Shown here: piece after piece, positions 4,105 through 42,142 of the stretch
Layout: every line of letters starts with the position of its first letter
How positions within the stretch are numbered: position 1 is the stretch's first letter
DNA from: a virus
Direction: 5' to 3' (one strand)
Length of the DNA stretch: 44,136 nt
IMG/VR virus record: IMGVR_UViG_3300022868_000039
Location: 1-44,136 of that record
Made by a program: the position numbers and the translations under genes
The notes under the pieces: generated by a model
What the model was told of the DNA's origin: nothing
Database searches by the model: none
Seen by the model: only the letters and a program-made list of their open reading frames with translations

Positions 4105-4105
4105 T

Positions 4106-12621: not shown

Positions 12622-15600
12622 TTAATAAGCAGTCATATCAAAAGTTCCTGTCCAAGCCCCTCCAGGCTGTCCTCTAAATTCTTCTAATCCGCCACTATCA
12701 TAGCATACAATATCTCCTTGTGCAGAAGGATTGGAAGTTCCGACATCTAACCCTAATTTTGTACAATTCAATACACCAATAATATCGGCATTGCCACTTA
12801 CATAGAAAGCATTAGTTGGAGTTATTGCCGCACCGACTGCCAATTTACTTGAAATAGATTGCTCTGTGGTATCGATTCGAGAAGTAGTAAGTTCATACCC
12901 TGTTATTGTATGTGCTAAAACTTGAGAAGCAGTAACCGACCTTGCATAAATATCACCACCATCTATTTTTGTTACATCACTGGCGTGTCTCCACGCTTCA
13001 ATATTTGTTTTTGTAGTACTGTTTTGAAATATTCTATTTGTTGCATCTGAAGCTAACTTTCCAACTACAATTGAAGTCGCCCCCAGTCTATCAACTGATA
13101 ATGTTCCTGTAGAAATATTACTTGCGTTCAAGTTGGTAATTGTTATGGTAGTAGCATTTATAGAACCAGATTTTAAATCATCCGCTACCAAATCACCTCT
13201 AATTGTTATGGTAGGAGAACCCCCAGAATTAAATCTTAAATAATGAGTAGCATCTCCGTATACTTCAAAATAAACAGCTCCCCCAGAAGTTTTTTGTAAT
13301 AAGAATCCTGCCACACTATCAGCATACGAACTTTTACCGTAAGAAGCAATCAATCCACCAATTCCTGAACCACCTACCTTTAGTGTATCACGAAAATAAC
13401 CATTATCACCAGCAATAATCGGAGAGTAAATTGCTTTATTAGAAATGAAAGTCCCTCCCGATAAGATGCCTTCTCGTAACTTATCTAAATTGCCATCATC
13501 TGTCCAGCCTACATCATTAGAGTATTCACTTAAATCCGCACTATTAGGAGGGTTGGCATCAGAAATTTGACTCCAAGTAATCGTTGAGCCTGGTCCCAAA
13601 ACAATATCTCCTGAAATTTCTAATACACCTGTTTGAGTATTAAATCTTAAATAATTATCTCCGTCATAATACATCTCAAATTTTGAGTAATCAGTAGCAG
13701 TTTTTTCTAACCAAAATCCTTTGCTTGCATCTGCATAATCTGTTTTGCCATAAGATTTTATAACAGAGGCAATTCCTGATTGGCCCATTGTTAGAGTATC
13801 TCTAAAATAACCATCTATACCTGCCAAAACAGGACTATAAATCACATCTTCTTTTATAAAGCTACTCCCACTGTATTCTATGTTAGCTTCAGTAATTGGA
13901 GTATCTCCTGCTTGGATACTTTCTATACTACTTTGAGCTTGTGATATACTTTGGTTAATCAAAGTTTCTTCCTCTGATACTGCGGCGGTTAAGTCGCCCC
14001 CTATCTGTCCTAATTCAAGTAAAGCAGAGTCAATTTTATACGATATTCTTTTAACAACCAAACCATCAGCAAAAGTAGTTTGTAAGTCATCACGAAGATT
14101 CCTGATACAGATTCTATGCCCTGGTTCAATACCTGCAATATTATATTTGTCAGTTACTTCAATTGTCAATTCTTGCTTAGGGTCTTTTCGGTAAGCCAAT
14201 ACTTTTGTTACTCTAATATCTGAAACTGCACTTGATAATACAGCAGAGTCTTGCTGAAATAAAGTAATTCTGCCGTAATCATCTTGTGAATCACTATTTT
14301 TATCATAATCAAAAACATACGAAGCATCTGCAGTTGAACGCCCATTCCAAAATACAAAATAATTAACTACACTTTCTATAGTTTTATGTGATTTAATCTC
14401 GGCAATGTCCCTACCAATAACTAATGTATGCTCCGTTTGTGAACTACTGTCTTTAACATACAAATCACCCTCACCATCTACATACCAATACCAAGTAGTA
14501 GGTAAATACTCTTCTATTTTTTTCAGAGTGTCTAAATGTTTCATTCTATCAAAAGTGTAAGATACAGAGTTACCACAATCATCAATCGTAGTTCCCCAAA
14601 TATATGAAACCATTGGATTGGTAGTTTGTAAGATAAAATTATCTAAAATATTTTTAATAATTTTTGAAGAGGATTCAGCAGTTTCTTCCACATAAAAGCC
14701 AGCAGGCTCAGTCGGCTCATAAGGCGGAGTACCAGAAATATTATAATAGTCATTACTCAATTTAGAAACCGCGCCATAAAAAGTCAATACAACAGTTTCC
14801 TGACCATTTGTATATTGTGGTCCGATAGCAACTAAATATCCGTAAAAAATTTGTTTATCTGTATTAAACCTATCAGTTAAAAATATTTTTAATCTATTGC
14901 CGTATTTGATTGCCCCCGTTGGATTCTTTACTGCATCATACTCATCATAATTATCTATTGGTTTTTTTAGAGAAATGGTTACTCCCCCCACGCCACCATT
15001 AATAGTTCGGCTAATCGTCAAGTTAGAAATTATTTCATCTGGGCTTAGAACCTTAATAAAAGTTCCGTCTGGCTCATATAATTTATAACAAAGTTTATTT
15101 TCTACCCTTTCCCTTTCTATTATGTTAGATTTGGCTGAAAGAGTTGTATAGGACATTACTATTAATTGTGCCTTTGCAGAAATATTAGTTAAAACGCCAG
15201 TTTCTTTAATATTTGCTTTGGTGGTAATAGCTTTTGTCTTTGTATTTTGTATTCTTGCTTTGGCAGACAAAAGATTAGGCAACCCAAGATTTCCTTTTGC
15301 TAACAGAGTTTGTATTGTAGTAGATACTAACTGTGCTTTGCCCAAAATTAAAGAAGAACACACACTTTTTAAATTAGAAAGTGCGGATATACTTGTTGAA
15401 GAAGTAGATAACCCAGTATAATGCACAGTTAAAGTAACATAGTCTATCTGTGGGTATACAGGAGTGTAGGAATGTTGACAACAGACTACTTTAACAGTAA
15501 CCCCGTTTATTATTGCCCCGCTTGGTACAGAGCAATTAAAATTAGTTACTTTCAAATAGTAAGAAGTTTCTATTGTTCCTGCAGTTGTTTTAACAGAATA

Positions 15601-16203
15601 AACAAACCCAAAATTTGAAGCATTTACTTGAGTATCTGTTAAAGACAGCCCCCACAAGACAGCACTTCCTCCGTAAGACACGGCAGTCAATGACTCTTCT
15701 GGTAAATAGGTATCCGTTGCTTTCTCATCGCCTACTATTGCATCACCAACAACTAATTTTATACTATTTTCTTTTATGCTATACAAATCACTATCCCCCA
15801 AAGTATTTAGACACGGAGACCCCCCTTCAAATTTAACATTATCAGTTAAATACCATTCCTTTGTTCCCACAGAAGTATCGTTGCCGGTTGTTCCTGGAGC
15901 AAGTTCGCCCGTGTCTGCCCCAATAAAATAGTTAGGAATTTTTAAGTTTAAGCGTCTAAATAACCAGCATAAGTGAATAGGTTTCCAAGTTTCTAACCAA
16001 TTAAAAAGTTTCATCTTCCTATTAGAAACACATTCACCTGTGCTAATTATTGGTAATCCTTCTTTAGAGGATTCTCCTGTGTAAAAATGAGCTGAATATT
16101 TTGTTATTTTATAAATTCTTTTATTTTTTGGTACTCCTAAAAACTTCCTTCCCAAAGGATTATTACAAATCTTTGCTAAAATTATTTCAGACTTTGTTTG
16201 CAT
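12622..16203 (-). CDS. Tail tip / baseplate hub and fibre protein with 14-residue repeats, 1193 aa
   Basis: A large modular tail protein follows the distal tail gene. Residues 1-260 end in a beta-sandwich-like region (VTLTVHYTG). Residues about 265-365 hold seven copies of the 14-residue repeat (e.g. NISAKAQLI, TLSAKSNII). Residues about 367-735 look like a siphophage hub domain (LTISRTINGGVGGVTISLKK; GNRLKIFL; IFYGYLVAIGP). A short coiled coil (INQSISQAQSSIESIQAG) leads to two similar fibre-like units at about 778-870 and 920-1005, both with IYSP..AG..GYFRDTL and YLRFN. The end (GGAWTGTFDMTAY) resembles receptor-binding tails. It likely contacts the host; the exact receptor is unknown. Confidence 0.75.
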   Translation of the reverse strand: MQTKSEIILAKICNNPLGRKFLGVPKNKRIYKITKYSAHFYTGESSKEGLPIISTGECVSNRKMKLFNWLETWKPIHLCWLFRRLNLKIPNYFIGADTGELAPGTTGNDTSVGTKEWYLTDNVKFEGGSPCLNTLGDSDLYSIKENSIKLVVGDAIVGDEKATDTYLPEESLTAVSYGGSAVLWGLSLTDTQVNASNFGFVYSVKTTAGTIETSYYLKVTNFNCSVPSGAIINGVTVKVVCCQHSYTPVYPQIDYVTLTVHYTGLSTSSTSISALSNLKSVCSSLILGKAQLVSTTIQTLLAKGNLGLPNLLSAKARIQNTKTKAITTKANIKETGVLTNISAKAQLIVMSYTTLSAKSNIIERERVENKLCYKLYEPDGTFIKVLSPDEIISNLTISRTINGGVGGVTISLKKPIDNYDEYDAVKNPTGAIKYGNRLKIFLTDRFNTDKQIFYGYLVAIGPQYTNGQETVVLTFYGAVSKLSNDYYNISGTPPYEPTEPAGFYVEETAESSSKIIKNILDNFILQTTNPMVSYIWGTTIDDCGNSVSYTFDRMKHLDTLKKIEEYLPTTWYWYVDGEGDLYVKDSSSQTEHTLVIGRDIAEIKSHKTIESVVNYFVFWNGRSTADASYVFDYDKNSDSQDDYGRITLFQQDSAVLSSAVSDIRVTKVLAYRKDPKQELTIEVTDKYNIAGIEPGHRICIRNLRDDLQTTFADGLVVKRISYKIDSALLELGQIGGDLTAAVSEEETLINQSISQAQSSIESIQAGDTPITEANIEYSGSSFIKEDVIYSPVLAGIDGYFRDTLTMGQSGIASVIKSYGKTDYADASKGFWLEKTATDYSKFEMYYDGDNYLRFNTQTGVLEISGDIVLGPGSTITWSQISDANPPNSADLSEYSNDVGWTDDGNLDKLREGILSGGTFISNKAIYSPIIAGDNGYFRDTLKVGGSGIGGLIASYGKSSYADSVAGFLLQKTSGGAVYFEVYGDATHYLRFNSGGSPTITIRGDLVADDLKSGSINATTITITNLNASNISTGTLSVDRLGATSIVVGKLASDATNRIFQNSTTKTNIEAWRHASDVTKIDGGDIYARSVTASQVLAHTITGYELTTSRIDTTEQSISSKLAVGAAITPTNAFYVSGNADIIGVLNCTKLGLDVGTSNPSAQGDIVCYDSGGLEEFRGQPGGAWTGTFDMTAY
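15110..15410 (-). repeat. Seven tandem 14-residue coding repeats inside the tail-tip gene
   Basis: In translation, units such as LLSAKARIQNTKT, AITTKANIKETGV and NISAKAQLIVMS recur every 13-15 residues. They match the repeat that fills the 1492-residue protein at 23699-28177. The DNA copies have diverged, so protein sequence rather than DNA identity is conserved. Confidence 0.8.
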
Positions 16204-22086: not shown

Positions 22087-22512
22087 TTACTTTGTTATTA
22101 AGGCTCTTCTAAAAGCCGTTTTTAGATTATCTTCGACCTTTTTTCGCATTTGTATTGCAGTTTTTGCCATATACCATTTTCCTTCAACCCAAGAAGCAAC
22201 TAACCTCTTGCCCAAAGCAGGTACATATCTACCTGGTTGTTGAGTATGCCCCGTTTCTACATAGACCGCATACGGTGCAATAGCTATATCAGGACCGACA
22301 GTTGCCTTAAATGTTCTGCCTTCCTGTGACTCTTGTGATAGTATACTTCTTCTTAGATTACCTGTCTTTGCAGGACAATTCTCTTTCGCGGCTTTTTCAA
22401 CTTGTAGCCCCGATGTTCTAACTGAAGCCCTAAGCAAATTATCCAAACTTGCCCGTTTACTTTTTATTGACAATAAGGCAAGGTCTGCCCCACGAACAGT
22501 AATTTTAATCAT
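22087..22512 (-). CDS. HK97 gp10-like head-tail joining protein
   Basis: I use ATG 22512 (MIKITVRGADLALLSIK) rather than the two earlier Met codons; it is the common start of this family. The motif VEKAAKENCPAKTGNLRRSI is diagnostic of HK97 gp10-like proteins, followed by IAPYAVYVETGHTQQPGRY. About 141 residues, normal for the family. It is placed between the head-closure protein and the tail terminator, as in related phages. Confidence 0.85.
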   Translation of the reverse strand: MIKITVRGADLALLSIKSKRASLDNLLRASVRTSGLQVEKAAKENCPAKTGNLRRSILSQESQEGRTFKATVGPDIAIAPYAVYVETGHTQQPGRYVPALGKRLVASWVEGKWYMAKTAIQMRKKVEDNLKTAFRRALITK

Positions 22513-22960
22513 AACGGTCATCATTTAATTTTTCTAACAATATATCAAAATAATAATAATTTGATGAAAAATGAACATTGGCGGCTTCTTCCTCGTCTAT
22601 CAATTTGACTCTGAAAGACTCTTCTGTCTCTTGGTCATAAAACATACTTCCTTCTTGAAAGTCAATTTCTATCGGCACATTTTCCCGAGAAATTACTTTT
22701 GGTAGAAATCCTCGATGAGTATAATTATATAATGTACCTTGTAACTCTCTTACTTCATCTTCCGTTAATGGTTGAATAGTGCCAGGAATATTTACATAAT
22801 CAGAAGTAAAAGTTTCATTCAAACCGCCTGTATCGTCCTTGGTTGTTGCCTTGTTCTTAACAGTAATCTTAGTATTAAACATTCTCAATGGAATGCCTAT
22901 TACTTTAGTAGGCTGAATTATCTTCAATTTGGCAGATAAGAATTGATTGGTAGTTGTCAT
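22505..22960 (-). CDS. Head closure (head-tail adaptor) protein, 151 aa
   Basis: The body of this protein resembles SPP1 gp16/HK97-type head-closure proteins: KNKATTKDDTGGLNETF, then LYNYTHRGFLPK, and FDILLEKLN at the end. Its position between the connector and gp10-like gene fits. It is related along its length to the last 138 residues of the giant protein at 23699-28177 (shared LYNYTHRGFLPK, KDD-G-L-ETF, LFLEKLN). At the N-terminus a single 14-residue repeat unit (QFLSAKLKIIQPTK) precedes the shared VxGIP. Confidence 0.75.
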   Translation of the reverse strand: MTTTNQFLSAKLKIIQPTKVIGIPLRMFNTKITVKNKATTKDDTGGLNETFTSDYVNIPGTIQPLTEDEVRELQGTLYNYTHRGFLPKVISRENVPIEIDFQEGSMFYDQETEESFRVKLIDEEEAANVHFSSNYYYFDILLEKLNDDRYD

Positions 22961-22965
22961 ATCTT

Positions 22966-23694
22966 TTAACCTAATGGTCCATTAGTAAACATTGTTTGAT
23001 TAGCTTGTCTATAAGGTCGGAGCAATCTTTCTACTTGGTCAACCCCACCAATCATTCCCATACTCTTAATACCACTACTTCTTTTTCTGGTTTCTCTATA
23101 ATTGCCTACTGCGATTGAGGTTAATTCAACATCATCTCCACTTTCAGACCTAATAAATTGTTCTGTTAATATTAATGTTGCTTTTGTAATTGCAGTAGGA
23201 ATTGGATAATACCCCGCTGAATAAACTACTTCTGCCATTGGTATAACATTTGAAGCGGTCGGGTCTCGTAAGCATAAATTCAAAGCATAATCGCTCAAAT
23301 TTAAGCCAAAGTATTCAAGATAACCTGTTGTTTCATTTATTCGCCAATTATCTACTTCAGTTGCTGTGTCCCAAGTTATAACTCCTGATGGACTGAAAGT
23401 AACTGTAATTTCTTCAACAGACACGATTGGTCGGTGTGGTAACTGAATAAATAATCCATTCTTTGGATAATCATAAGTAACTCTAATATCTTTTTCACAG
23501 CGAGAACTAAGACCGACACTTCCCCCCAACCATTGATTAATTGCTAAATGTGCTCTATCAACATACTCCTGTAAAACTGCGTCTGAATACTCAGCAAAAT
23601 CAATAATCGTTTGGCTTTTAAATTGAGCCAAAGTTAAGTAAATAGTTATTCCTACTGATGCCTTTGATGTGATTTGTGTAGTTGTAGTATCCAT
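22966..23694 (-). CDS. Head-tail connector (gp6-like adaptor), 242 aa
   Basis: The first residues, MDTTTTQITSKASVGITIYL, contain one unit of the 14-residue repeat. Then comes a helical part (FKSQTIIDFAEYSDAVLQEY) and a strand series typical of gp6/gp15-like connectors: LPHRPIVSVEEITVTF, LNLSDYALNLCL, VVYSAGYYPIPTAITKATL, with the SAGY-PIP element common in this family. It would bind the portal ring. Start in an exact AATCTTATG context. Confidence 0.75.
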   Translation of the reverse strand: MDTTTTQITSKASVGITIYLTLAQFKSQTIIDFAEYSDAVLQEYVDRAHLAINQWLGGSVGLSSRCEKDIRVTYDYPKNGLFIQLPHRPIVSVEEITVTFSPSGVITWDTATEVDNWRINETTGYLEYFGLNLSDYALNLCLRDPTASNVIPMAEVVYSAGYYPIPTAITKATLILTEQFIRSESGDDVELTSIAVGNYRETRKRSSGIKSMGMIGGVDQVERLLRPYRQANQTMFTNGPLG

Positions 23695-23698
23695 AAGA

Positions 23699-26600
23699 TT
23701 AATTAGTGTAAATACTATTATTTAATTTTTCCAAGAAAAGTTCATAATGATGATAGTTTGTTCTTGAAATCCAGCGATTAGCCAATCTTTGATTCCTTAC
23801 TGCTTTTACCCGATAGTTAATATTCTTTCGGGTATCATATAATAAATCGCCTTCTCTAATAGAAATATAGATAATTGTATTATTGCGGATTATTGCTTTA
23901 GGTAAAAATCCCCTATGTGTATAATTATACAATTTTCCTTGTAAAGTGGCAATTTCTTCTCCAGTTAGAAATCTAATCGCAGCGGGAACATAGTATTGAT
24001 TTACCGCAAAAGTTTCATCTAAATCCCCTACATCATCTTTTATATTTGTTTTTTGTTTAATATTTACTTTGGTATTTAGCATATTTTTAGGAATGCCCAA
24101 TACCTTTGTTATGACATATAAAGATGCTTTGGCTGAAATAGAATATTCGCCCAAAAGTAATAAAGATGCTTTAGCAGAAACAGTAACATCGTGTGTAGTT
24201 TTTATACTTCCTTTTGCTTGGATTGTTGGAGAGGCAGTTATTTCAATATATGCCAATGCCTGAATAGTAGATGAATACCTTATTACAATATTAGCTTTCC
24301 CGCTTATTGACTGATTTTCTGTCTTCTTTACTGAACCTAATCCTTGTATATTAGATTGACTGGTCTTTTTAATATCGCCCTTTGCAGAAATACCATTAGT
24401 AATATCAGATGTTTTAATTCTACCTTTAGCTTGGGTATTTACAGAAACTGCATACTTTTTAATACTGGCTAATGCAGTTATAGTCCGTTCAGAAGTATCT
24501 TGAATACTACCTTTAGCTTGTATATCTGTATCGAGAGTTTCAAGTAAATTTGCTTTGGCTTGAATAGTTTGTTCTCCAAGAACTTTAATACTTCCAAGAG
24601 CCTGAATCATTGTGCTACTTGTTTTAAAAATATCTGCCTTACCTTGAATATCTTGTTCACCCAGAGCCTTAATATTTCCAAGAGCCTGTGCACTCTTGCC
24701 CAGAGTACAAATTAAGTTAGCTTTAGACTGAATACTTTGTTGGCTGGTAACTTTAATATTTCCAATAGCTTGGATTGTGGTGCTGTCTGTCTTAAAGATA
24801 CTCGCTTTTGCAATTATATCTTCCCCAAAGCTAAATTTAATATTTCCTTTTGCAGTAATTAAGACCTCTGAAACTTTGAATATACTCCCTTTACAAGATA
24901 TAAGAGTACTTTGTGTTTTCTTTATGCTCCCAATGGTGGAAATACTTGTTCCTTCTCCGCCTGTCTGTATTCTTCCTTTGGCGGAAATAGCCGAACTAAA
25001 GGTTTGTTTGATAGACCCCTTACCAAAAATACTTGTACTTTCTTCTCGAGTAATCCGACCCTTAGCTTCTAAGAGTATATCACCAGAAATTCCTACTCTT
25101 CCCAAAGCAGTAACTGTCTGAGTCATTATTTTTTTAATATCCCCCTTTGCTGTTAGTGGATTATCAATACCTGAAATTTTTATACGAGCCTTTGCGGTTA
25201 TACTCTGATTAAAAGTATTTCTTATGTTTGCCTTAGCTTCTAATAGATTTGAAATTCCACCAAGCTCAATTCGTGCTTTGGCAGAAATACTCGTATCTGA
25301 TAAAGACTGAATACGAGCCTTAGCAGAAATTGAGATAGAATTATCTAACACTTTAATATCTGCTTTGCCTGAAATAGCTGTTTCGGAAGTTTTCTTTATA
25401 TCACCCTTTGTAGTTAAACTTACTCCTTCACCATATAAAATATTACCTTTGGCAGAAATGGCAGACATTTCTGTCTTTTCTATTCTTCCTTTAGAAGTGA
25501 TACTTTGTTCTTGTGTTTTCTTAACATCAGCTTTAGCACTAACACTTCCACCTATATTAGTTAATATTAATGCCTTACACTGAATAGAAGTTTCTACGGC
25601 AATTAACTTAATATCTGCTTTTGCTTTTATATTAGTTGCTTGACTAACTTTAATATTAGCTTTAGAAGAAATATTTGTATCAATAGTATTTCTTATATTT
25701 GCCTTGCCTAAAATATCCGTTTCGGATAAAAATTGAACCCTGCCTTTTGCCGTTACTGTTTTAGATACTTCTTGTTGTATTCTCCCCTTAGCAGATAAAC
25801 TGGTACTAACTCCACCAATTTGGATTCTGGCTTTTGCTGAAATTGGTAAATCATAAGTATTCTTCAAGTTTGCTATTGAAGTTATTAAAGAACTTTCCAT
25901 TCGTTGTAATCTTCCCTTTGCAGAAATGTTTGTTTCAACTGCTTCTTGCTTGATACTGGATTTTCCTTGAATGGTTTCTTCAGCAGTCTTCTTTACACTA
26001 CCCAAAGATTGAATATTTGTGCTTTGAGTTTGTCTAATATTTGCTTTGCCCGAGATAGCTCTGCTGGAAGAAAGGTCTACCCTTGCCTTACCAGAAATAT
26101 TAGTTATAGATAGATATTGAATTCGTCCCTTTGCAGAAACATTTGTATCTTTGGTTTTTTCTATTCGTCCTTTGCCAGAAAGATTTGTGCTAACCTCATT
26201 TCTTAAATTACCTTTACTTTGAATATTAGTAGAGCCAATCGCAGTTACCCTTGCTTTTGCAGTAATAGTTTGTGAAGTAACTAATTGTACTCTGGCTTTG
26301 CCAGAAATAGTTGTTTCAGAGATTAGTTGTACTCGTCCCTTTCCTTCGATAGAGGTTTCCTGCATCTTCTTTATATCCCCTTTGGCAGTAATAAAAGAAC
26401 CTTCAGTAAATCTGATATTAGCCTTACCAGAAATATTTGTAGATACTGCACTTCTTATATTTGTTTTACCTGAAATAGCTGTTTCGGTAAGTAATTGAAA
26501 TCTCCCCTTGGCAGTAATAGTTTTATCAAATGTTTTACTAATACCTCCTTTAGCCGTTACTGTCTGTGTTACATTAGCTTTAAGAATATTGGCTTTGCCT

Positions 26601-28177
26601 GAAATATTGGTACTGACTCCCCCCACAGTAACTCTGGCTTTTGCAGTTATTGTTTTTGTTAGTGTCTTTTGAATTCTCGCCTTTGCTGTGATTGTCGTTG
26701 CCACTGTAGTTACCGTTGTATAAGTAACACTTAAATATGGGTCTGAACTTGTGTTTGCATACTCAGAAGCACGAGCTGCAATACCATTTGCTTGTGTGTT
26801 GCTCAAACTAATTGGGTCATCTTCAATATCGTGACCTTCTCTCAATCCTAATTTTGTATAACTTGTTTTAGAAATCCAACCTCTACCAGTTGCATTTAAA
26901 ACAAACGTGTTATATTCACCAGAAGTAAAATCATCTAATATATTTTTACCAGTAGCTCCTTGTGTTGGGTCGTCAATACTTCCACACTGGTCAAAGTCAC
27001 CCCCAACAAGTGTTGTATTACTTGCTTGGGTGGTTTGTACTAAACCAATATAAGCTTGAGCGTCATCATCGTGTGCTGAATTCGTATCAACATATAAATA
27101 TAAAGTGGCAGCAGTAATTGTTGCACCAGAAGTTAAACCAGAGGTATCAGCAGGCAAGAAAAATCTTTGTCCTTGTAAATTTCCATTACTACCTCTAACC
27201 CACATCATTGCCTGGTCACCACTTCCGTAATTATAAGTATACGAATATGTTGTTCCTGTTGGATTTGCATTACCAGAAGACAAATCGTGAATTGTATCCC
27301 AAGAATAAGGGTCATCAGGAGAACCTATATCACCATCACCTGCACCCATATAATAACTTGTAACTGTATCTGTAAAGACATCACCAACAGAATCTTTAAT
27401 AAAGTCTGCTGTAATCTTTTTTCTTAAATATTTTTTATTATCTTTCTGAAAATAATCTACTTTAACTGTTTCTATTTTTTTATCATCCCAAACTTTAAAT
27501 CCTTTTAAATAAGTATGCCATTCTTTTCCATCTTCTTTATCATCACCAATCAATAATTCTTTATTACTATCAAATTCTTTATCTCTCATTAAATCTAATT
27601 CATATTTAATATTATCCTTAAAACCTCTTTTAATAGCTTTTTTTGGAAATTCTACTTCAAACTCAAAATTATAATCTTTAACTTTTTTAACTTTATCTTT
27701 AATTCTTACAGCTTTAACTAATCGAGAACGAGTAAAATATAAAAGATAATCAATTCCTTTACCGAAAGCATTTTTATAAATTACAGAATTAAGATGAGAC
27801 TGTTTAGTTATTTTAAGAGTTTCATCTGGCGTTAATAATTTACCTTTAATGTGGTTACACTGGGCTTTATATCTAATTGTCTGGTCTTTACCATCAAACA
27901 AATCTCTAAAAGAAACCCATTCATCTGCATATTCAGGCAAAAACGGTTGAAAAGAATGAAACTTAAACCCCCATCCTTTTTTATCTTCATCCCAATTTAA
28001 AGTCCAATCTACTTCACGAAATCTTTTGCTATCTAATTTATCAAGATAATGGATATGCCCTGCGTGAGCATTCATTATCCTCTCTTTATTGTCTAATTTA
28101 AAATGCTTTGAATTCAAAGAACGCAAATTTTTCAATTCGTCATTGTCAGTAAGAGGTTTTGGTATTTGCGAATACAT
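23699..28177 (-). CDS. Giant structural protein: beta-sandwich N-terminus, ~61 14-residue repeats, C-terminal head-closure domain
   Basis: This 1492-residue protein has three parts. Residues 1-490: a lysine-rich front and a beta-rich region ending with DPYLSVTYTTV, resembling a DNRLRE-type adhesion or carbohydrate-binding domain (GATITAATLYLYVD, GRGWISKTSYTKLGLREG). Residues about 491-1354: about 61 tandem copies of a 14-residue repeat (T-x-I-S-[AG]-K-[AG]-x-I). Residues 1355-1492: a domain related to the separate head-closure protein encoded two genes downstream. It lies among connector genes, so it is probably a virion part at the neck, perhaps a collar fibre; this is inference. The codons vary between units, so the array is old and kept by selection. 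Confidence 0.8.
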   Translation of the reverse strand: MYSQIPKPLTDNDELKNLRSLNSKHFKLDNKERIMNAHAGHIHYLDKLDSKRFREVDWTLNWDEDKKGWGFKFHSFQPFLPEYADEWVSFRDLFDGKDQTIRYKAQCNHIKGKLLTPDETLKITKQSHLNSVIYKNAFGKGIDYLLYFTRSRLVKAVRIKDKVKKVKDYNFEFEVEFPKKAIKRGFKDNIKYELDLMRDKEFDSNKELLIGDDKEDGKEWHTYLKGFKVWDDKKIETVKVDYFQKDNKKYLRKKITADFIKDSVGDVFTDTVTSYYMGAGDGDIGSPDDPYSWDTIHDLSSGNANPTGTTYSYTYNYGSGDQAMMWVRGSNGNLQGQRFFLPADTSGLTSGATITAATLYLYVDTNSAHDDDAQAYIGLVQTTQASNTTLVGGDFDQCGSIDDPTQGATGKNILDDFTSGEYNTFVLNATGRGWISKTSYTKLGLREGHDIEDDPISLSNTQANGIAARASEYANTSSDPYLSVTYTTVTTVATTITAKARIQKTLTKTITAKARVTVGGVSTNISGKANILKANVTQTVTAKGGISKTFDKTITAKGRFQLLTETAISGKTNIRSAVSTNISGKANIRFTEGSFITAKGDIKKMQETSIEGKGRVQLISETTISGKARVQLVTSQTITAKARVTAIGSTNIQSKGNLRNEVSTNLSGKGRIEKTKDTNVSAKGRIQYLSITNISGKARVDLSSSRAISGKANIRQTQSTNIQSLGSVKKTAEETIQGKSSIKQEAVETNISAKGRLQRMESSLITSIANLKNTYDLPISAKARIQIGGVSTSLSAKGRIQQEVSKTVTAKGRVQFLSETDILGKANIRNTIDTNISSKANIKVSQATNIKAKADIKLIAVETSIQCKALILTNIGGSVSAKADVKKTQEQSITSKGRIEKTEMSAISAKGNILYGEGVSLTTKGDIKKTSETAISGKADIKVLDNSISISAKARIQSLSDTSISAKARIELGGISNLLEAKANIRNTFNQSITAKARIKISGIDNPLTAKGDIKKIMTQTVTALGRVGISGDILLEAKGRITREESTSIFGKGSIKQTFSSAISAKGRIQTGGEGTSISTIGSIKKTQSTLISCKGSIFKVSEVLITAKGNIKFSFGEDIIAKASIFKTDSTTIQAIGNIKVTSQQSIQSKANLICTLGKSAQALGNIKALGEQDIQGKADIFKTSSTMIQALGSIKVLGEQTIQAKANLLETLDTDIQAKGSIQDTSERTITALASIKKYAVSVNTQAKGRIKTSDITNGISAKGDIKKTSQSNIQGLGSVKKTENQSISGKANIVIRYSSTIQALAYIEITASPTIQAKGSIKTTHDVTVSAKASLLLLGEYSISAKASLYVITKVLGIPKNMLNTKVNIKQKTNIKDDVGDLDETFAVNQYYVPAAIRFLTGEEIATLQGKLYNYTHRGFLPKAIIRNNTIIYISIREGDLLYDTRKNINYRVKAVRNQRLANRWISRTNYHHYELFLEKLNNSIYTN
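24116..26710 (-). repeat. Array of ~61 tandem 14-residue (about 42-bp) coding repeats
   Basis: By hand alignment, units such as TNISGKANIRFTEG, TSISAKARIELGGI and QTIQAKANLLETLD follow one another with rare 13-, 15- and 16-residue variants. Constant positions are a small polar residue, a hydrophobic, A/G, K, A/G/N and I/V/L. The count of 61 is from visual parsing and may be off by one or two. Confidence 0.85.
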
Positions 28178-28745: not shown

Positions 28746-29243
28746 TTAAGTAATCTTGGCTTTAGCAAAAAGTTTCCGACTCTGTTTATGTAGAATCTCT
28801 TTGACTGAAAAATCAGGAAATATTTGATATTCTTTCTTAATATTGACTCCATCAATATTGATATGCCAACCTAAAATGTAACAAAGATATTTTGAACTCT
28901 CTGTTGAGAGAGCTAAATTCATTGTCAAAAGTTTGCGTCTCCAAAATGAACATTTTAATTGATTGCCTGCAATTTCAATATTATTTTTTAAACGCACTCC
29001 TTTAAAAAGAAAATCACCTGTTTCTAAATCAACTTCAAAGGTAATAGTTTCGTCTTTTAAACTTATTAATTTAAAAGATTTGAATTGTTCAGAATATCGG
29101 TCTATTTCCGAAAAAGAAGTTTCTTCTATTGTATCTCCTGTTTGTTTAAATTGACAAAGGGTAGAGTTGTCTTTTCTGACAGCCACCCAAAAAAAGTCTA
29201 AAGCACCTTGATTGTATAATTGATTGATTAGTTCTTTATTCAT
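28746..29243 (-). CDS. Hypothetical protein, 165 aa
   Basis: The protein begins MNKELINQLYNQGALDFFWV and is a mix of strands and helices: LISLKDETITFEVDLETGDF then KGVRLKNNIEIAGNQLKCSF. No family recognised. It lies directly upstream of the holin gene and after a predicted terminator, so it may start a transcription unit with the holin. Confidence 0.65.
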   Translation of the reverse strand: MNKELINQLYNQGALDFFWVAVRKDNSTLCQFKQTGDTIEETSFSEIDRYSEQFKSFKLISLKDETITFEVDLETGDFLFKGVRLKNNIEIAGNQLKCSFWRRKLLTMNLALSTESSKYLCYILGWHINIDGVNIKKEYQIFPDFSVKEILHKQSRKLFAKAKIT

Positions 29244-29364: not shown

Positions 29365-29435
29365 TATAGAGGTCTCTATATATAATACCTGAATTTAGAA
29401 TTTTAGTTCATTCTCAAATTTGAGAATAGAGGTCT
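29365..29435. promoter_or_regulatory. Operator-like cluster: 18-bp perfect palindrome and repeated ATAGAGGTCT
   Basis: ATTCTCAAATTTGAGAAT (29410-29427) is a perfect 18-bp palindrome. ATAGAGGTCT occurs at 29366-29375 and again at 29426-29435, and the first copy is itself the left part of TATAGAG-GT-CTCTATA (29365-29380). Such arrays are typical of repressor-binding sites, but no regulator is known here. The palindrome lies just past the stop of the gene at 29434. Confidence 0.45.
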
Positions 29436-29937
29436 AATTTTCATCGTATTGAAGAGTGAAAGTGAAAGTTTCAGTATCACCTGCTTCAGCACTTGCGGCG
29501 GTTCTTAGTTGAAGAACAACATAATCAGAATAGCCTGCGGCACTCAAAGAACTTGCCTGACTATCATTGATTGATACATTGGAAGAAGCTGGGTCGGCAG
29601 TCGGCACGACCGCATCTGTGTAAGCATCAGTGGTTACAGGTTCTACAAAAGCAGAGCCACCGCCATCTTTCCAATATAATGATTCTCCATCGCCTTCAGC
29701 ACCACCACTTTTCCAAAGTTGCAAATTTTGAACTTTGTTAAAAGAGCCGGTAAAATGACCTCTTAACCAAACTTCATAGGAATTGCTACCCGCAGTAATA
29801 GGATACGAAGTATACTCTGCTGCAGAAGCAACATCTTGATTTTGAAAATTGAACAAGTTACCACTAATGCCTAAATCAGAAGTGATTGTAGCACTCGCCG
29901 CACCTGTTCTTTGATTCCAATTAAATGTTAAAGCCAT
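29434..29937 (-). CDS. Putative virion decoration protein, 167 aa
   Basis: The protein is beta-rich and contains many Ser, Thr, Ala and Gly residues. It opens with TFNWNQRTGAASATITSDLG and closes with GDTETFTFTLQYDEN, both typical of small Ig-like virion proteins. Middle segments (EVWLRGHFTGSFNKVQNLQL) are also stranded. It is downstream of the glycosyltransferases in transcription order and separated from neighbours by structured gaps, so it may be strongly and independently expressed. No family named. Confidence 0.6.
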   Translation of the reverse strand: MALTFNWNQRTGAASATITSDLGISGNLFNFQNQDVASAAEYTSYPITAGSNSYEVWLRGHFTGSFNKVQNLQLWKSGGAEGDGESLYWKDGGGSAFVEPVTTDAYTDAVVPTADPASSNVSINDSQASSLSAAGYSDYVVLQLRTAASAEAGDTETFTFTLQYDEN

Positions 29938-30059: not shown

Positions 30060-31148
30060 TTAATCTATGGCAGTCAATATTTTATCATATGCAGTTAGCC
30101 ATTTTAAAATATTGTCCTCTATATTCTGTGATTCTGCCCAGAATTTTGCTTTATTGCCCATTTCTTTACGCTTCTTCTCATCTTCAATTAATCCTTTTAG
30201 TGCATTATACCAATCCTTGTAATTATCTTGACATAAATATCCAGTAACACCGTGCTTGATAGAATTATTATAAGCAGGGACATCTGAAGCAACTGTTGGG
30301 ATTCCTAAGGTAGAGTACTCTTTAAAGCGTAAATCTGATTTTGCATCATTGAAAGAAATACTGACTGTTGGGGCAATTCCTATATCAAATGCTAACTCTC
30401 TTAATCTGACTGGATATTCAAGTAATGGAACTGTTGGGTAATACTCAAGCGGTCCTGAATGACTACACTTGGGGCAAGTTTGATGAACATTCGGCAGTTT
30501 CAAGAAAATATCCAATGGAGTAAATCCGAACATAACCAGATGAACCTTGCCTTTATATTCAAGAACTAAATCCTCTAATACTTTGGCAATTAACTCTAAA
30601 TCTTGTCGATGCCCAACACAGCCTTCCCAGCCGATTCTGATAATATCATCATCTCTCCGTTTCTCATAAAACTCTTTATTCTTTATTGGCATTTCCCACA
30701 ATTCCCTATCTAAGTAATTTGGTAGACAATGAATCTTTTTATTATAAAATGAGTATTCTCTTTGCAATCTTGGCGTTGAAACAGTAGCTCCGTTACAAAG
30801 ACTCATACAGTGCATTGCTCGGGTGGTCATTCCACCGATATGCTCCCAGTAAGGTCTGGCAGGATTGTCTGGCAAAATACCTTGCATATAATCATCTATT
30901 TCAAATACAATTTTCTTTCCGTTAGCTCTCCAATACTGAATAAACTCTGCCATATCATAGCTTGAAGGTCTTTGTAAGACGATTAAGTGTGCCCATTGGG
31001 CTACTCTTGGGTCTGAAATATCGTAGACTACTTCTACATTTGCTAACCCCTGCTTTTTAATTTGATTGGCGGGCATCAACATTCTATAAAATCCACACCC
31101 CATCTTGTCCTTTGGCACAAATAAAATGTTTGGTTTAGAATTTCTCAT
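30060..31148 (-). CDS. Glycosyltransferase, GT4-like, 362 aa
   Basis: The pattern is a GT-B enzyme: N-terminal NILFVPKDKMGCGFYRMLMP, IVFEIDDYM, then a C-terminal Rossmann-like half with IRIGWEGCVGHRQDLELIAK and KSDLRFKEYSTLGIPTVAS, carrying the acid of GT4 enzymes (E near the end), and KHGVTGYLCQDNY. One C-x2-C (CPKC) is inserted in the C-terminal half. It transfers a sugar from a nucleotide-sugar donor; acceptor unknown. Leader AATAGGAAAAAGTT-ATG has an AGGA, unlike most genes here. Confidence 0.82.
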   Translation of the reverse strand: MRNSKPNILFVPKDKMGCGFYRMLMPANQIKKQGLANVEVVYDISDPRVAQWAHLIVLQRPSSYDMAEFIQYWRANGKKIVFEIDDYMQGILPDNPARPYWEHIGGMTTRAMHCMSLCNGATVSTPRLQREYSFYNKKIHCLPNYLDRELWEMPIKNKEFYEKRRDDDIIRIGWEGCVGHRQDLELIAKVLEDLVLEYKGKVHLVMFGFTPLDIFLKLPNVHQTCPKCSHSGPLEYYPTVPLLEYPVRLRELAFDIGIAPTVSISFNDAKSDLRFKEYSTLGIPTVASDVPAYNNSIKHGVTGYLCQDNYKDWYNALKGLIEDEKKRKEMGNKAKFWAESQNIEDNILKWLTAYDKILTAID

Positions 31149-31168
31149 AACTTTTTCCTATTTGTTAA

Positions 31169-31960
31169 TTAGTAATTTATCATCTTTTGCAATTCCTCTT
31201 GAGTATAATCTTGTGCTGAAAGAATAACTGCGTGTTTTTGCACTTTACTCCAAGTATATAATGGTCTTAAAAAATCTGATTCTTTATGAACTGCTTTGTT
31301 CTGTCTTTTTTTCCAAATAGTGGCATACTCAGGTGCTCTTTTCTGATAAAACTTACATCTCTTTTCCCAGTTATCAACTGAAATTGCTTTGCCGTAGTGT
31401 CTGATTAGTCCTGCGGGTAGCCTTTGGCTATAAAGAGAAATTTCAGGACTCCGAGAATCTTTGCGAGTAAATCTTAGAGTGGGTAGATTCTTAAAAACAG
31501 AAACTATCTCTCTAAACTCAGGACCACACCACCTTCTCATTGAAACTAAATTGCCATTATACTCTCTATCTTTATCTTCTTCGGTTATATAAAAATCGAA
31601 CAATCTTGAATAAACCACATCTACATCATCACTTAAATTTTCAAAGTTAAAAAATAATCTTTCATCAGCATCTAAATAGACAAGCCAGTCTGGATTATCT
31701 TTTTGAGCTTCTTCCAGTAATTTTTGCCTTTGATGTTTCTCCACTATGGCTAACTCTGTTTTAGTATCCCACTCCTTAACTCCAATTACTGATTTTACTG
31801 CAGGATGCTTTTTACAAATTGCCACTGTATTATCTTGTGAAGCATCATCAAAGACATAGATTCCGCCAGTACAGTATTCTGCCATAGCATCTAAATGTTC
31901 TTTGATTATCAAAGATTCATTTCTTATTCGGGTCATTCCCGCTATTTTATATTTCCTCAT
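31169..31960 (-). CDS. Glycosyltransferase family 2-like protein, 263 aa
   Basis: The N-terminus (IAGMTRIRNESLIIKEHLDA, GGIYVFDDASQDNTVAI) and WLVYLDADERLF match GT2-like (Glyco_tranf_2_4) enzymes; the DAD motif binds the metal and nucleotide sugar. The C-terminal half is basic. It overlaps the stop of the upstream GT gene by four bases, so the three genes 30060-32907 form one unit. Confidence 0.85.
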   Translation of the reverse strand: MRKYKIAGMTRIRNESLIIKEHLDAMAEYCTGGIYVFDDASQDNTVAICKKHPAVKSVIGVKEWDTKTELAIVEKHQRQKLLEEAQKDNPDWLVYLDADERLFFNFENLSDDVDVVYSRLFDFYITEEDKDREYNGNLVSMRRWCGPEFREIVSVFKNLPTLRFTRKDSRSPEISLYSQRLPAGLIRHYGKAISVDNWEKRCKFYQKRAPEYATIWKKRQNKAVHKESDFLRPLYTWSKVQKHAVILSAQDYTQEELQKMINY

Positions 31961-32907
31961 ACCTTTATCTCATTGTAGATAGCTTCAAATCTATCTGCAA
32001 TTTTCTTAATATTATGATTTTTTAAAATAATATCTCTATTGTTCTTCCCCATCTTTGTATAGTCTCCTGAAAATATATTTTGAATTTCCTTTGCCAATTT
32101 ATTTCCGTCCCATTTCTCTTTGTTTGTTCTGCTTGAGAAGTTACGCTTCTTAATCTCTTGGTAAGACTTAGGAGTAATTACTCCGTCATACCCATTATAA
32201 TCTCCTACTATCGCTGGCTTACCCATTGCCATTCCTTCCAGTAAACTTCTACCCAAGCCAATTATAAGGTCACAATTTTTAATTATCTTTTCTGTATTGA
32301 ACATTATCTTTCCATTAGTTCCTATTACATCCATTTCAGCATTTAGTATTTTTACAGCCTTCCAAACTTCTTCAGCGTCCCATTCATTATGAAAGTAATT
32401 ACTGGCGATTAATATTTTAATTTTTTTGCCTGCTTTTTTAGGAGAGTAAAAGAATCTTTCTGTATCTATTGGATTGCGTATAATTTCTTTTAACTTTTCA
32501 GGAATATTTTTATATTGAAAATTTACTACTTCTTCTGAAACTCCAATATATCTGGCAATGTCCACATCTTTAGGATACTTTTCAGGTTCAGGTAATACTC
32601 CGTGACTAACAAAAATGACAGGCAATTTTGGAAATACTCTATGTGCTTCCGAAAGTGGTCGTGAATGTTGTCCGTGGATTACATCAAAACCATATTCTTC
32701 TGTAGCTTGATAAAAGGTATTTTCCAACTTTGGAAGAATTGTAATTCCCGCCTCTTCAAACCGTCTGCCTTGTAGAATTAAACTGATAGACGGCGAATAA
32801 ATTGAGACTCGGTGTCCGCGACTAATTAATTCTTTAGCCAAAGTATAAAGGTAAGTATCTGAACCAGAATACCAAGTCAATCTTAAATTGGTCATTAAAA
32901 TTCTCAT
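31957..32907 (-). CDS. Glycosyltransferase, GT4-like, 316 aa
   Basis: A GT-B fold enzyme: MRILMTNLRLTWYSGSDTYL opening, LAKELISRGHRVSIYSPS, DVIHGQHSRPL, then the C-terminal domain with GLGRSLLEGMAMGKPAIVGD, where E is the usual GT4 catalytic acid. It shares the leader AATAGGAAAGAGTT-ATGAGAA with the other GT4 gene at 31148. Acceptor unknown. It lies immediately after a small virion candidate at 32932. Confidence 0.85.
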   Translation of the reverse strand: MRILMTNLRLTWYSGSDTYLYTLAKELISRGHRVSIYSPSISLILQGRRFEEAGITILPKLENTFYQATEEYGFDVIHGQHSRPLSEAHRVFPKLPVIFVSHGVLPEPEKYPKDVDIARYIGVSEEVVNFQYKNIPEKLKEIIRNPIDTERFFYSPKKAGKKIKILIASNYFHNEWDAEEVWKAVKILNAEMDVIGTNGKIMFNTEKIIKNCDLIIGLGRSLLEGMAMGKPAIVGDYNGYDGVITPKSYQEIKKRNFSSRTNKEKWDGNKLAKEIQNIFSGDYTKMGKNNRDIILKNHNIKKIADRFEAIYNEIKV

Positions 32908-37306: not shown

Positions 37307-39169
37307 TTATTTAGCCTTAGGCGTTTCCGCTTTAATTACAAATTCTAATTGTCGGTCATAATCATCAGAAGGGGGAGTTACTTGCTTAACCCCAATAAAT
37401 CCTGCATCTTGTAAAAATTTAATCATAATCTCAGGAGTATAACCTGATAAGTATATTTCGGTTAAATCTTTTTGTGTGCCAAAAATAGCTTCTAAGTATC
37501 TTTCATCAAAAGTTTGCAAGAATTTACCCATTGCCTTCTTAACATCTACACAAATAATAGTCATCTCACTAACAGGCTTTAAAACTCTAAAGCACTCTTT
37601 CAATGCAGGAAGAAGCATTGGTTTGCCAATTCTTTGAAGAACTCTTTTAGCATAAATTTCATCTACAGAGCCATCTTCTAAAGGTAGTTCTGAAAAAGCC
37701 TTTGCAACTATTTCAGTATGTGGAAAGTTTTGTGTATCTAAATGAGTCCAATCTCCATTTAGATGCACTGGAGTTTTACTCCCCAATTCAATTTTCTTTG
37801 GGATTGTGTCGTTTGATGTTGGAATATTTGTGCTTTCTTCCGTCCCTTCCCTGGAAGGAACCGCTCTTTGTATTCCATCGAGATTTGTATTAATCATAGG
37901 ATTTTCCTTTTGGTTAATTATTAAATTATTGTGTTTATGTGTAATATAATTAGTTGCTATTTCTATTGATTTAGGATTTTGACAACTAATATCTCCTGAA
38001 TTATAAAGAGCAGTAAATAATGTTTCGTCAATATGAACTCCATATTTTCCTTTTTCTGCCATTGCCAACCACAAGTCCCAGTCCTGAAATCTCTCTAAAC
38101 TTTCATCAAAGCCCTCTTCAGGAAAGTCTTCTGCTTTAATTAAGCTCATAGTGGAAATATAATTTGTTCTCTTTAATTTATCAATGTCCCAAGAAACCCC
38201 ACGAACTTGCCCCGTTAGACTACCTTTTCTTTGATAATTACAATAAGAAAAAGAAGCGTTAGAATAAAATAATTTAGTTAATAATACTTCCAACATAAGA
38301 GGTTTCAATTCTATATCATCATCACAGAAAAATAAGAAGTTACCTTTTGCCCTTTTTCTGCCCTCATTTCTTGCCCACGAAGCCCCTCGCTGGTCTTTAT
38401 CTCTAACTATAATAATTTCAATATTCTTGTGTGTTTGCTTTTTTAGAGATTCAATAGAGTGTGGTTCTTTGTCTAATATTCTGGTTGGTATAATAACCGA
38501 AATTAACTCGTCTGTTGAAATCTTCTTTTTAACAATATTTAGTAATCTCTTTTTTGGAAAATGTTTCGTTAAGAGTCTGTGATTAGCAATATCATTATCA
38601 TATCTACCTTGGCTGGAAGAATGAAAATGGTCGCAAATAGTTTCAAGATGCCCAAAAGAATAGCCTTGTTCCAAAGCAGTCAAAAACAATTCGTTGTCTT
38701 CCCCACCATTTACATAATCTTCATTTAAACCGCCTAATTTTTCAAACACTCTTCTTTTTATCATAAACGCCGCACCTGTAGCTGGGATTTGGCAAGTATT
38801 GAATCCATCAAAACTTAACTGGGTTTTTACAGAATCAATTAAGTTATCTACATTGCCATATTTCCCCCAATACATATTCATTCCATAAACTATCTTATCC
38901 ATACTTGGTATTCTTAAAGGTAACCCAACAATATCTTCGTCGTGTTCTTGTAATTCTTTAAATGCCTGTTTAGTTAAGACCACATCATCATTAAGAAAAA
39001 GTAACCTATCCGCTTTTGATAGACTTGCCCCACGATTACACGCTTGAGCAAAATAAAACCCACGAACAATAAATACTTTATAGTCCATAGGTATGTTTTG
39101 TAAGCATCCTCCAATCAAATCCCAACGATTGTGATGGGGGATAATTATGTCTGGTAAATCTTTATGCAT
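37307..39169 (-). CDS. Tri-domain protein: two GT2-like domains and a methyltransferase-like domain, 620 aa
   Basis: Residues 1-205: a GT2-like domain (DIIIPHHNRWDLIG, RLLFLNDDVVLT, PATGAAFMIKRRVFEKLGGL, NGGEDNELF). Residues about 217-400: a second GT2 (LISVIIPTRIL, GASWARNEGRKRAKGNFLFF, CDDDIEL, FQDWDLWL). Residues about 425-610: a methyltransferase-like region (GDWTHLDTQNFPH, LPLEDGSVDEIYAKRVLQRI, ECFRVLKPVSEMTIICVD) with a degenerate SAM site, lacking the usual DxGxGxG. Met425 at 37897 follows AAAAGGAAAATCCT-ATG, so the methyltransferase part may also be made alone. Confidence 0.78.
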   Translation of the reverse strand: MHKDLPDIIIPHHNRWDLIGGCLQNIPMDYKVFIVRGFYFAQACNRGASLSKADRLLFLNDDVVLTKQAFKELQEHDEDIVGLPLRIPSMDKIVYGMNMYWGKYGNVDNLIDSVKTQLSFDGFNTCQIPATGAAFMIKRRVFEKLGGLNEDYVNGGEDNELFLTALEQGYSFGHLETICDHFHSSSQGRYDNDIANHRLLTKHFPKKRLLNIVKKKISTDELISVIIPTRILDKEPHSIESLKKQTHKNIEIIIVRDKDQRGASWARNEGRKRAKGNFLFFCDDDIELKPLMLEVLLTKLFYSNASFSYCNYQRKGSLTGQVRGVSWDIDKLKRTNYISTMSLIKAEDFPEEGFDESLERFQDWDLWLAMAEKGKYGVHIDETLFTALYNSGDISCQNPKSIEIATNYITHKHNNLIINQKENPMINTNLDGIQRAVPSREGTEESTNIPTSNDTIPKKIELGSKTPVHLNGDWTHLDTQNFPHTEIVAKAFSELPLEDGSVDEIYAKRVLQRIGKPMLLPALKECFRVLKPVSEMTIICVDVKKAMGKFLQTFDERYLEAIFGTQKDLTEIYLSGYTPEIMIKFLQDAGFIGVKQVTPPSDDYDRQLEFVIKAETPKAK

Positions 39170-40253: not shown

Positions 40254-40901
40254 CTAATAAATATACTTTTTACTGAAATATCTTGGGTATCTTTTTTCTT
40301 GACCTTTAGTTGTTTCAAAATGTTTAACTTCAAATGTGGGTAAATATCCTACTTGAAAACCATTTTGTCTGAAGTATTCATTTAAGGTTTTATCATTTAA
40401 CACCTTACATTTACTTACTAACTCAGTGAAATCTTCAAACTTCATAGCTCTAAAAATTCCACCTATGTGCTGTGTTTCATTAAATTCAAAAGAGGCAACC
40501 TTTTTTGTCTTTACTATCTCTGGGACAGTATCTATGCCTTTAACTACGGGGCTAACAATTAATTTTTTTAAATCATCGGTAAATACTTCGGCTATTTTAC
40601 TTATAGTATCAGGAGTTAAAATTTCACAGTCAGGGTCTACCTTTATAACTATATCTATATGCCTTGATTTAAACCAATCATAAGCCTGTTTAGTTGCCCC
40701 TGTAATTCCCCTATTCTCATTATTCCTAATAACTTGGAAGCCTTCTTCTTTTAACCATTCGTAAGTTCCATCTGTTGACCCATTGTCTACAATTATATGT
40801 TCATACGAAATACCTGCTTTATCTTTTAAAGCCTTTAGACAATGGTAAGTATAATACAAACGGTCAAGAGTTATACTAAAAATTCCTATTTTTTTATTCA
40901 T
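40254..40901 (-). CDS. Glycosyltransferase family 2-like, 216 aa
   Basis: I chose ATG 40901 (MNKKIGIFSITLDRLYYTYH), which follows the previous stop by four bases, over 40934. GT2 features are HIIVDNGSTDGTYEWLK, NRGITGATKQAYDWFK and IVIKVDPDCEIL, with a DPD metal motif. It has an accessory C-terminus (FQVGYLPTFEVKHFETTKG). It forms one run with the GT-D-like and methyltransferase genes. Acceptor unknown. Confidence 0.85.
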   Translation of the reverse strand: MNKKIGIFSITLDRLYYTYHCLKALKDKAGISYEHIIVDNGSTDGTYEWLKEEGFQVIRNNENRGITGATKQAYDWFKSRHIDIVIKVDPDCEILTPDTISKIAEVFTDDLKKLIVSPVVKGIDTVPEIVKTKKVASFEFNETQHIGGIFRAMKFEDFTELVSKCKVLNDKTLNEYFRQNGFQVGYLPTFEVKHFETTKGQEKRYPRYFSKKYIY

Positions 40902-40905
40902 AAAT

Positions 40906-41694
40906 TTAAGATAATAATGATTCATCAAAATCAAATTTTTCTATGTGCATTCGTTGTTTTTCACCTTCACCTGCAAAAGCAGTTAGAATATGCCCAACAT
41001 CAAGAGATATTTTTCCCATTCTTTTTATTTGTGGTCCAAGATAATGTGAAGCAATGCCCATTCCCAGCAAGGCTACTTGAAAATCATATTCTTCAATTTC
41101 TTTCAACATTTTATGTGCTTCACTACCTAAATTAGAAAACTCTGAACAACCAACTGCCCCGACTACTTGTATTTTATGTAGATTCATTTTTTCATAATGT
41201 TGGACAAATTTTTTATGCTTCGTTCTTTCAAAAATAGCTGGAGCGTGATATCCAACCAATAATACTTTTGCCCCACTAAGCATATCAAACAATTCCCCCG
41301 AAGCAACCATTTGATATCTATCTGCTAAAGTAGTAATTATCTTTAATCCTTCAATACCATAATGTTTGAGTATTTCAGGATACATATAGAAAAATTTACC
41401 CCAATCAGTAGTTTGAACTCTGGTGTCTGTTTCTTTTCTTCTTAGTGGGTGAGAAAAAACATAATCATTCTCTGGCAATAATCGGATAATATCTTTTTTC
41501 AAAATAACATCACTTGGTTTAACTCCACTAATTGATAAATATTTTTCTAAATGAGGTATTTCCGCTATTTCAGGACACGCTAAAAATATTTGTTCAGCAT
41601 CACCAAGAGAATTTACTGAGAAAGGTAACTTACAAGTGTGAGCCACTTGCAAATCCTTTATCATTTCTTCGTAGGTTGCATTAGTATACTTCAT
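40906..41694 (-). CDS. GT-D-fold glycosyltransferase candidate, 262 aa
   Basis: I chose ATG 41694 (MKYTNATYEEMIKDLQ) because it follows the previous stop directly and has the exact AATCTTATG context. LPFSVNSLGDAEQIFLA resembles the S-x-x-R-x-GDGE opening motif of GT-D (DUF1792) enzymes, with an altered core. The C-terminal LLGMGIASHYLGPQ and ISLDVGHILTAF match the family's LG-P/iDiGHi elements. GT-D enzymes transfer glucose or related sugars onto protein-linked glycans. Confidence 0.65.
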   Translation of the reverse strand: MKYTNATYEEMIKDLQVAHTCKLPFSVNSLGDAEQIFLACPEIAEIPHLEKYLSISGVKPSDVILKKDIIRLLPENDYVFSHPLRRKETDTRVQTTDWGKFFYMYPEILKHYGIEGLKIITTLADRYQMVASGELFDMLSGAKVLLVGYHAPAIFERTKHKKFVQHYEKMNLHKIQVVGAVGCSEFSNLGSEAHKMLKEIEEYDFQVALLGMGIASHYLGPQIKRMGKISLDVGHILTAFAGEGEKQRMHIEKFDFDESLLS

Positions 41695-41698
41695 AAGA

Positions 41699-42142
41699 TT
41701 AAAATTTATAAATATAAGTTGCAAAAAGATGGTCTATTTCGTGTTGAAAAACTTTTGCAGTTTGACCCTTCACATCCTCCTCTATAAAATCTGTTAAGTC
41801 GCCTTCTTGAATTAATTGGTATTTAACTACACATTTATGGTGGCGTTGAACTGTGATAGGTGCTTCTTCTGGAAAAGTAACACAACCCTCAACAGAATCA
41901 ACCGTTGCGTTAGTGTGGTTAATTATTACAGGATTAACTACTATCTTTTTAGTGTTAGTTACAAAAAAAGCTAAGGGGTCTTGGTCATCTATTTGAGGAT
42001 GAGCCAAAGCAAATATCTGTGAAAAATTGCCTTTTGGTTTAAGACAAAAATCAAGCATTTTCTGAGCCTCTTGAATAACCCGTTGTAAGTCAGAAATAGC
42101 AACTTCTCGACTTATTTTTGTGTGTGGATATACTATTTGCAT
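41699..42142 (-). CDS. def: Peptide deformylase
   Basis: 147 residues with two of the three PDF motifs: EGCVTF (residues 85-90, normally EGCxS) and QHEIDH (133-138), the HExxH metal site. The first motif (GxGLAAxQ) is degenerate, reading IFALAHPQ at 43-50, with both glycines lost. PDF removes N-formyl from new proteins; phage-encoded copies are known, often in phages with their own translation adjustments. Start in an exact AATCTTATG context. Confidence 0.85.
   Translation of the reverse strand: MQIVYPHTKISREVAISDLQRVIQEAQKMLDFCLKPKGNFSQIFALAHPQIDDQDPLAFFVTNTKKIVVNPVIINHTNATVDSVEGCVTFPEEAPITVQRHHKCVVKYQLIQEGDLTDFIEEDVKGQTAKVFQHEIDHLFATYIYKF

Follow-up and report, generated by a model that had tools for sequence, protein, structure and literature searches.

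The 44,136-nucleotide IMG/VR virus record IMGVR_UViG_3300022868_000039, which we call the window over its full length, encodes a protein of 1492 residues, P0001, on its minus strand (23699..28177, read from 28177 to 23699, stop codon included). We propose that P0001 is a virion neck fibre with a C-terminal stopper domain as anchor, a cationic beta-repeat stalk, and an N-terminal adhesive head, and estimate the probability of this reading at roughly 60%. The open reading frame (ORF) comprises an N-terminal region (residues 1-261, 27395..28177), a DNRLRE-like head domain (residues 262-493, 26699..27394), an array of short repeats (residues 494-1358, 24104..26698), and the stopper domain (residues 1359-1492, 23702..24103). 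A preliminary description of the window, made from the DNA letters, had placed this gene in the connector cluster. The location was borne out, and P0001 is in addition a connector-protein fusion itself. The stopper anchor and a conserved gene module are the main additions of the present analysis.

The last 134 residues of P0001 were 46% identical to a short stand-alone protein encoded two genes on (22505..22960, minus strand). This protein comes after the head-tail adaptor (22966..23694, minus strand; phrog_442, 3.7e-16), as is usual for head-completion proteins, and matched Phage_HCP with E = 0.0027, below the cut-off. An AlphaFold2 model of the C-terminal domain, calculated together with seven repeat units, had predicted local distance difference test (pLDDT) values of 83-95 for most of the domain and 62-76 in a few blocks. 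Foldseek comparison of the domain with the PDB returned the necks of phages Milano (5.5e-5) and 7-7-1 (7.4e-5), the SPP1 connector (gp6/gp15/gp16; 6.1e-4) and mycobacteriophage Douge, with a gene transfer agent following at 3e-3; the matched entries included 8fwe, 9rks, 2kz4, 8zdl and 7z4w (E = 5.5e-5 to 6e-4). The domain combines the predicted neck-stopper fold with homology to a protein encoded between the adaptor and the gp10-like gene, and we conclude from sequence and model that it is a phage neck stopper (head-completion) domain. Because of the identity to the short stopper and the neck matches, we regard P0001 as a stopper with an N-terminal stalk and head. It shares fold and gene neighbourhood with stopper proteins such as SPP1 gp16 and those of the Milano and 7-7-1 necks, but the known members matched in the PDB have about 110-130 residues, whereas P0001 carries 1,358 additional residues at its N-terminus and has a short paralogue beside it.

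The preliminary description had counted about 61 tandem 14-residue repeats. A self-trained profile with chaining identified exactly 61 consecutive units with the consensus T-x-I-[STQ]-[AG]-K-[AG]-[RNSD]-I, separated by 49 steps of 14 and 11 steps of 15 residues. The chain score was 1021.7, whereas none of 50 shuffled proteins exceeded 14.1, and autocorrelation peaked at 14, 28/29 and 42/43 residues. A DNA pattern for two successive units gave nine matches in the window and none in any of 100 shuffles, and the two sets of shuffles together rule out a chance or low-complexity repeat. Conservation was strong at particular positions of the 61 units: position 3 was I, V or L in 59, position 6 was K in 51, position 7 was A or G in 59, and position 9 was I, V, L or F in all. 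In the 15-residue units, the extra residue sits in the variable part past position 9, which several times reads GGVS or similar. Mean hydropathy was +4.3, +0.9, +0.6 and +4.3 at the hydrophobic or small positions 3, 5, 7 and 9, and -0.8, -1.4, -2.6 and -3.1 at the polar positions 2, 4, 6 and 8. In sequence terms, this alternation is the pattern of a two-faced beta strand. In P0001, the repeat is almost devoid of Trp, Cys and Pro, and the array has a net charge of +68. All viruses checked had cationic arrays, with a charge of +0.6 to +3.6 per unit, whereas the window's other virion proteins were negatively charged in all six cases checked.

Mean nucleotide identity between units was 0.457, compared with 0.448 when the same residues were randomly re-encoded with synonymous codons, in agreement with the earlier claim that the copies have diverged in DNA and that selection has kept their amino acids. 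Only one of eight tested cases showed a codon use in the array that deviated at p<0.05 from that of the remaining genome. Since the units are saturated at synonymous sites, have kept their residues, and are no more similar to their neighbours than to distant units, we conclude that the array is old and maintained by selection rather than freshly amplified.

No family match for the array was found in Pfam, PHROGs, NCBIfam or the PDB, in line with the preliminary description, which could name no virion repeat family with this consensus. The only PDB profile matches, to coronavirus HR1, were set aside because we judged them an effect of periodicity (14 = 2 x 7). Pfam names returned for the arrays of other viruses (EndoS LRR, TetR_C_42, Prp3_C) were repeat artefacts, as no single stretch passed. 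Among ten-unit blocks of the P0001 array, none was conserved enough for an alignment-seeded search. An AlphaFold2 model of the repeat, calculated as a single chain from an ungapped 37-row alignment, was all-beta and 14-periodic, with pLDDT 66 and a predicted template modelling (pTM) score of 0.49. In the second model, which included the C-terminal domain, the seven units reached about 51-61, and repeat pLDDT overall ranged from 51 to 73. Foldseek found no match for the repeat model in the PDB at E<=1e-3; the best non-significant matches were mostly beta-helical (tapirin, GlmU, LpxA, VacA). The models fit a solenoid without proving one. The earlier suggestion of a beta-solenoid or fibrous rod agrees with the all-beta periodic model but is not settled by a model of this confidence or by the PDB search. 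Neither a known repeat family of established function nor a prediction of disorder lacking a regular fold emerged. Taken as a whole, the earlier interpretation is partly supported, in that an unnamed virion repeat is upheld. We consider the repeat a candidate new fibrous fold.

Upstream of the array, residues 314-485 of P0001 aligned with positions 11-164 of the 164 in the NCBIfam DNRLRE model NF033679 (E=7e-5, 22.9 bits, under the curated cut-off of 34 bits). The whole region 262-493 was homologous to a domain of another array protein, that of contig L039 (genome G029; 5e-13). Lectin-type heads were also found N-terminal to the arrays of relatives, namely Laminin_G_3 in L011, L039 and L032, Disaggr_repeat in L039, and Gly_rich_2 in L025, L035 and L038. 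Residues 1-261 had no named relative; none was found outside the same virus, and the only match was a weak one to Cren7 below the cut-off. Homology of residues 1-270 to the N-terminus of the L011 protein was not accepted, as identity was 26% over a gappy alignment.

The P0001 gene was present in four other IMG/VR contigs (L001-L004) at 99.7-100% DNA identity and with unchanged copy number. Two of these contigs hold only the 3' part of the gene, one holds the 5' part, and L001 contains the whole gene. Since this independent contig covers the gene together with its two flanks at 99.9%, an assembly artefact as the origin of the fusion is ruled out. A seemingly longer match in L001 was not real, as its ORF has equal length. 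The independent contigs L002, L003 and L004 all break at 25557-25683 of the window, within 127 bp inside the array (residues ~832-874). Such an overlap commonly marks a branching assembly graph and may reflect variant array alleles or a shared k-mer in the population.

A scan of IMG/VR with the two-unit DNA pattern yielded 35 stretches. The majority were true arrays, with between 4 and 165 units. The longest belongs to a protein of ~3,080 residues with ~165 units (L098, 4572-13811). The closest relative, L011, has two such fusions, with 43 units joined to the adaptor and 59 to the stopper. The L011 adaptor is 58% identical to that of the window and carries its units at the end where the window adaptor has one unit-like motif (TQITSKASV). 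The short stopper of the window also starts with such a motif (QFLSAKLKI). By score, the single motifs on these two window proteins were not beyond chance when compared with shuffled proteins, but they gain weight from their position and from the arrays carried by the L011 homologues. In genomes G004, G010, G020, G024 and G029, the array protein is encoded by a separate gene directly before the adaptor and ends in a conserved tail, and the stoppers of these genomes and of G025 end exactly in one unit. In the score test, the terminal units of only two stoppers (G020 and G004) beat every shuffled protein. Endonuclease-like ORFs are inserted between the array gene, adaptor and stopper of G024 (L097, 9243-10049 and 10990-11793). 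In the window itself, seven further units (15121..15396, minus strand) precede the tail domain of a 1193-residue tail protein (12622-16203; YqbQ-like domain, below the cut-off).

Relatives confined to phages had been expected, and arrays were indeed found practically only in viruses. The pattern scan of 85,000 prokaryote genomes gave 45 stretches, with a true array only in L048, a contig of a Blastocatellia metagenome-assembled genome; the few other stretches scoring >25 were unrelated repeats. As L048 carries both of the companion genes described below as well as the array, it is probably viral, and 297 genomes of its phylum contained no further array. Searches with tblastn gave no match for three array proteins among 50,697 GenBank phages, and no array match among plasmids.

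Two small proteins are encoded upstream of the array gene on the same strand, with the working names IGWQ150 (28746..29243) and DECO (29434..29937). Both occur with arrays in most contigs. As a non-circular test of this association, DECO was used as the sole query against IMG/VR. The search returned 41 loci, some of them near-duplicates, and the array search had already revealed about ten of the contigs; 40 of the 41 loci also had IGWQ150. In 36 loci, an array followed downstream in the same orientation, at a distance of 1.1 to 6.5 kb. As the remaining five have <1.5 kb of DNA downstream, the array was present in 36 of 36 loci with enough DNA. Array scores at these loci were 83 to 873, compared with at most 32 for non-repeat ORFs read backwards. 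The gene following the array, where it could be named, encoded a neck protein of at least three non-homologous types: phrog_442/541 adaptors, SU10_adaptor (70.9 bits), and Neck1/Phage_tail_S-like proteins. Judged from these gene orders, the module holds its site beside the neck genes while the neck type changes. In L013, the same module occurs twice in inverted orientation (3691-4383, plus strand, and 9113-9805, minus strand), probably as an assembly palindrome. A relative of IGWQ150 in Psychrobacillus phage Perkons, an Antarctic soil isolate, was weak (1e-4), had no array nearby, and was not counted; this distant relative lies past the tail fibre genes (L133, 13887-14480).

Several ORFs among the structural genes of the window look, by reading, like glycosyltransferases, with one methyltransferase-like ORF among them (30060-32907, 37307-39169, 40254-40934, 43352-44095). 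Virion proteins, for example the Thr/Ser-rich stalk, are possible glycosylation targets of their products. Another ORF (41699-42142) has a QHEIDH motif and, also by reading, resembles peptide deformylase.

We infer that P0001 is incorporated into the neck ring of the virion, is oriented outwards, and binds a surface. Its stopper domain would occupy or share a position in the closing ring of the head-tail connector, where the positions left by the long form would go to the short stand-alone stopper. The 61 beta-repeats would form a stalk with a hydrophobic or small face (I3, A/G5, A/G7, I9) and a polar cationic face (T/S2, S/T/Q4, K6, R/N8). By arithmetic with textbook rises, this stalk would be ~30 nm long as a one-chain solenoid and ~80 nm as a triple-beta-spiral fibre. 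The DNRLRE-like head at the far N-terminal end would probably be a carbohydrate- or surface-binding module, and the neck could thereby add weak adhesion to the host or another surface before the tail tip engages. The stalk is part of the DECO-IGWQ150-array module that lies between capsid and neck genes in many uncultivated phages.

Some observations weigh against this proposal. The array is fused to a stopper only in the window virus and L011 and is a separate gene elsewhere, and some arrays are on tail-tip proteins, indicating that the repeat itself is not neck-specific. The DNRLRE match of the head lies below the curated cut-off, which leaves surface binding a suggestion, and the fold of the repeat is modelled at low to moderate confidence. 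The nearly constant company of DECO and IGWQ150, with DECO nearest to the capsid genes, could also mean that array proteins in general bind the capsid via DECO as head fibres, the stopper fusions being secondary. Head fibres that bind flagella have been reported for phage 7-7-1 (PMC12796354). However, the array gene adjoins neck genes of changing type, and both adaptor and stopper bear arrays in L011; we consider a capsid fibre unlikely.

Low model confidence would suit an array that is not a folded rod but a flexible spacer rich in Ser and Thr. Such a spacer might be glycosylated by the products of the glycosyltransferase-like genes that, by reading of the sequences, lie near the module in the window, G004, G015, G024 and G029. 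Disordered linkers seldom keep patterns such as the strict hydrophobic/polar alternation, with an aliphatic residue or Phe at position 9 of every unit, or the fixed 14/15 spacing with its extra residue in a variable loop. Together with the all-beta periodic models, these features make a spacer quite improbable. The high positive charge and the fusion to a protein that closes the DNA channel raise the question of an internal protein whose array touches packaged DNA at the connector, but relatives have lectin-like heads at the distal end, which suits an external site, and arrays occur on tail-tip proteins as well. We give very little credence to such a DNA-binding role.

The neck fibre proposed for P0001 can be compared with the neck passage structure (NPS) of the lactococcal siphophages TP901-1 and the 936 group, a non-essential collar with fibres ending in carbohydrate-binding modules (PMC6669499, PMC4493119). 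The long NPS fibres sit at the portal vertex or collar and serve accessory adhesion, and the P0001 fibre would do the same with a putative carbohydrate-binding head. However, the NPS has an N-terminal BppU-like anchor, a coiled-coil stalk and C-terminal heads, whereas P0001 has a C-terminal stopper, a beta-repeat stalk and an N-terminal head; in TP901-1, the NPS gene also sits past the baseplate genes, at the far end of the structural region. No match to a BppU-like anchor domain was found in P0001 in Pfam, PHROG, NCBIfam or the PDB, its recognized anchor being C-terminal, and the array models as all-beta rather than as a coiled coil. As P0001 lacks these defining features, we do not file it with the NPS family. 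The triple beta-spiral of the adenovirus fibre shaft has a repeat of about 15 residues with alternating hydrophobic positions. The P0001 array resembles it in both respects but gave no sequence match to it, and the array models made here are single-chain. PMC12796354 also refers to this fold. The CP-delta head fibre of Orsay virus, a pentameric beta-bracelet fused to the capsid protein of an RNA virus of nematodes (PMC7565637), is likewise covalently joined to a virion structural protein, with a shaft of short beta-repeats and a role in attachment. As this fibre is pentameric, capsid-fused and from a nematode RNA virus, the likeness is an analogy only.

A broader proposal, to which we give somewhat less than even odds, is that these proteins represent a new class of phage appendage. 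The appendage would be a three-gene virion module that has so far turned up almost exclusively in uncultivated viruses and lies between the capsid and neck genes of phages whose necks are unrelated, and its new 14-residue beta-repeat fibre could be grafted onto any connector-ring or tail-tip protein. The single terminal units of stoppers would then perhaps be docking tags that stack with the fibre end. The repeat can be produced and solved directly as a candidate fold, and the 14-residue profile and the two companions provide a simple handle for annotating large "hypothetical" virion proteins and seeking hosts. Adhesive heads on neck fibres have been described chiefly in lactococcal phages. 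If our reading is correct, a widespread unnamed fibre system is missing from the cultivated phages searched, and neck adhesion would be common in uncultured phages.

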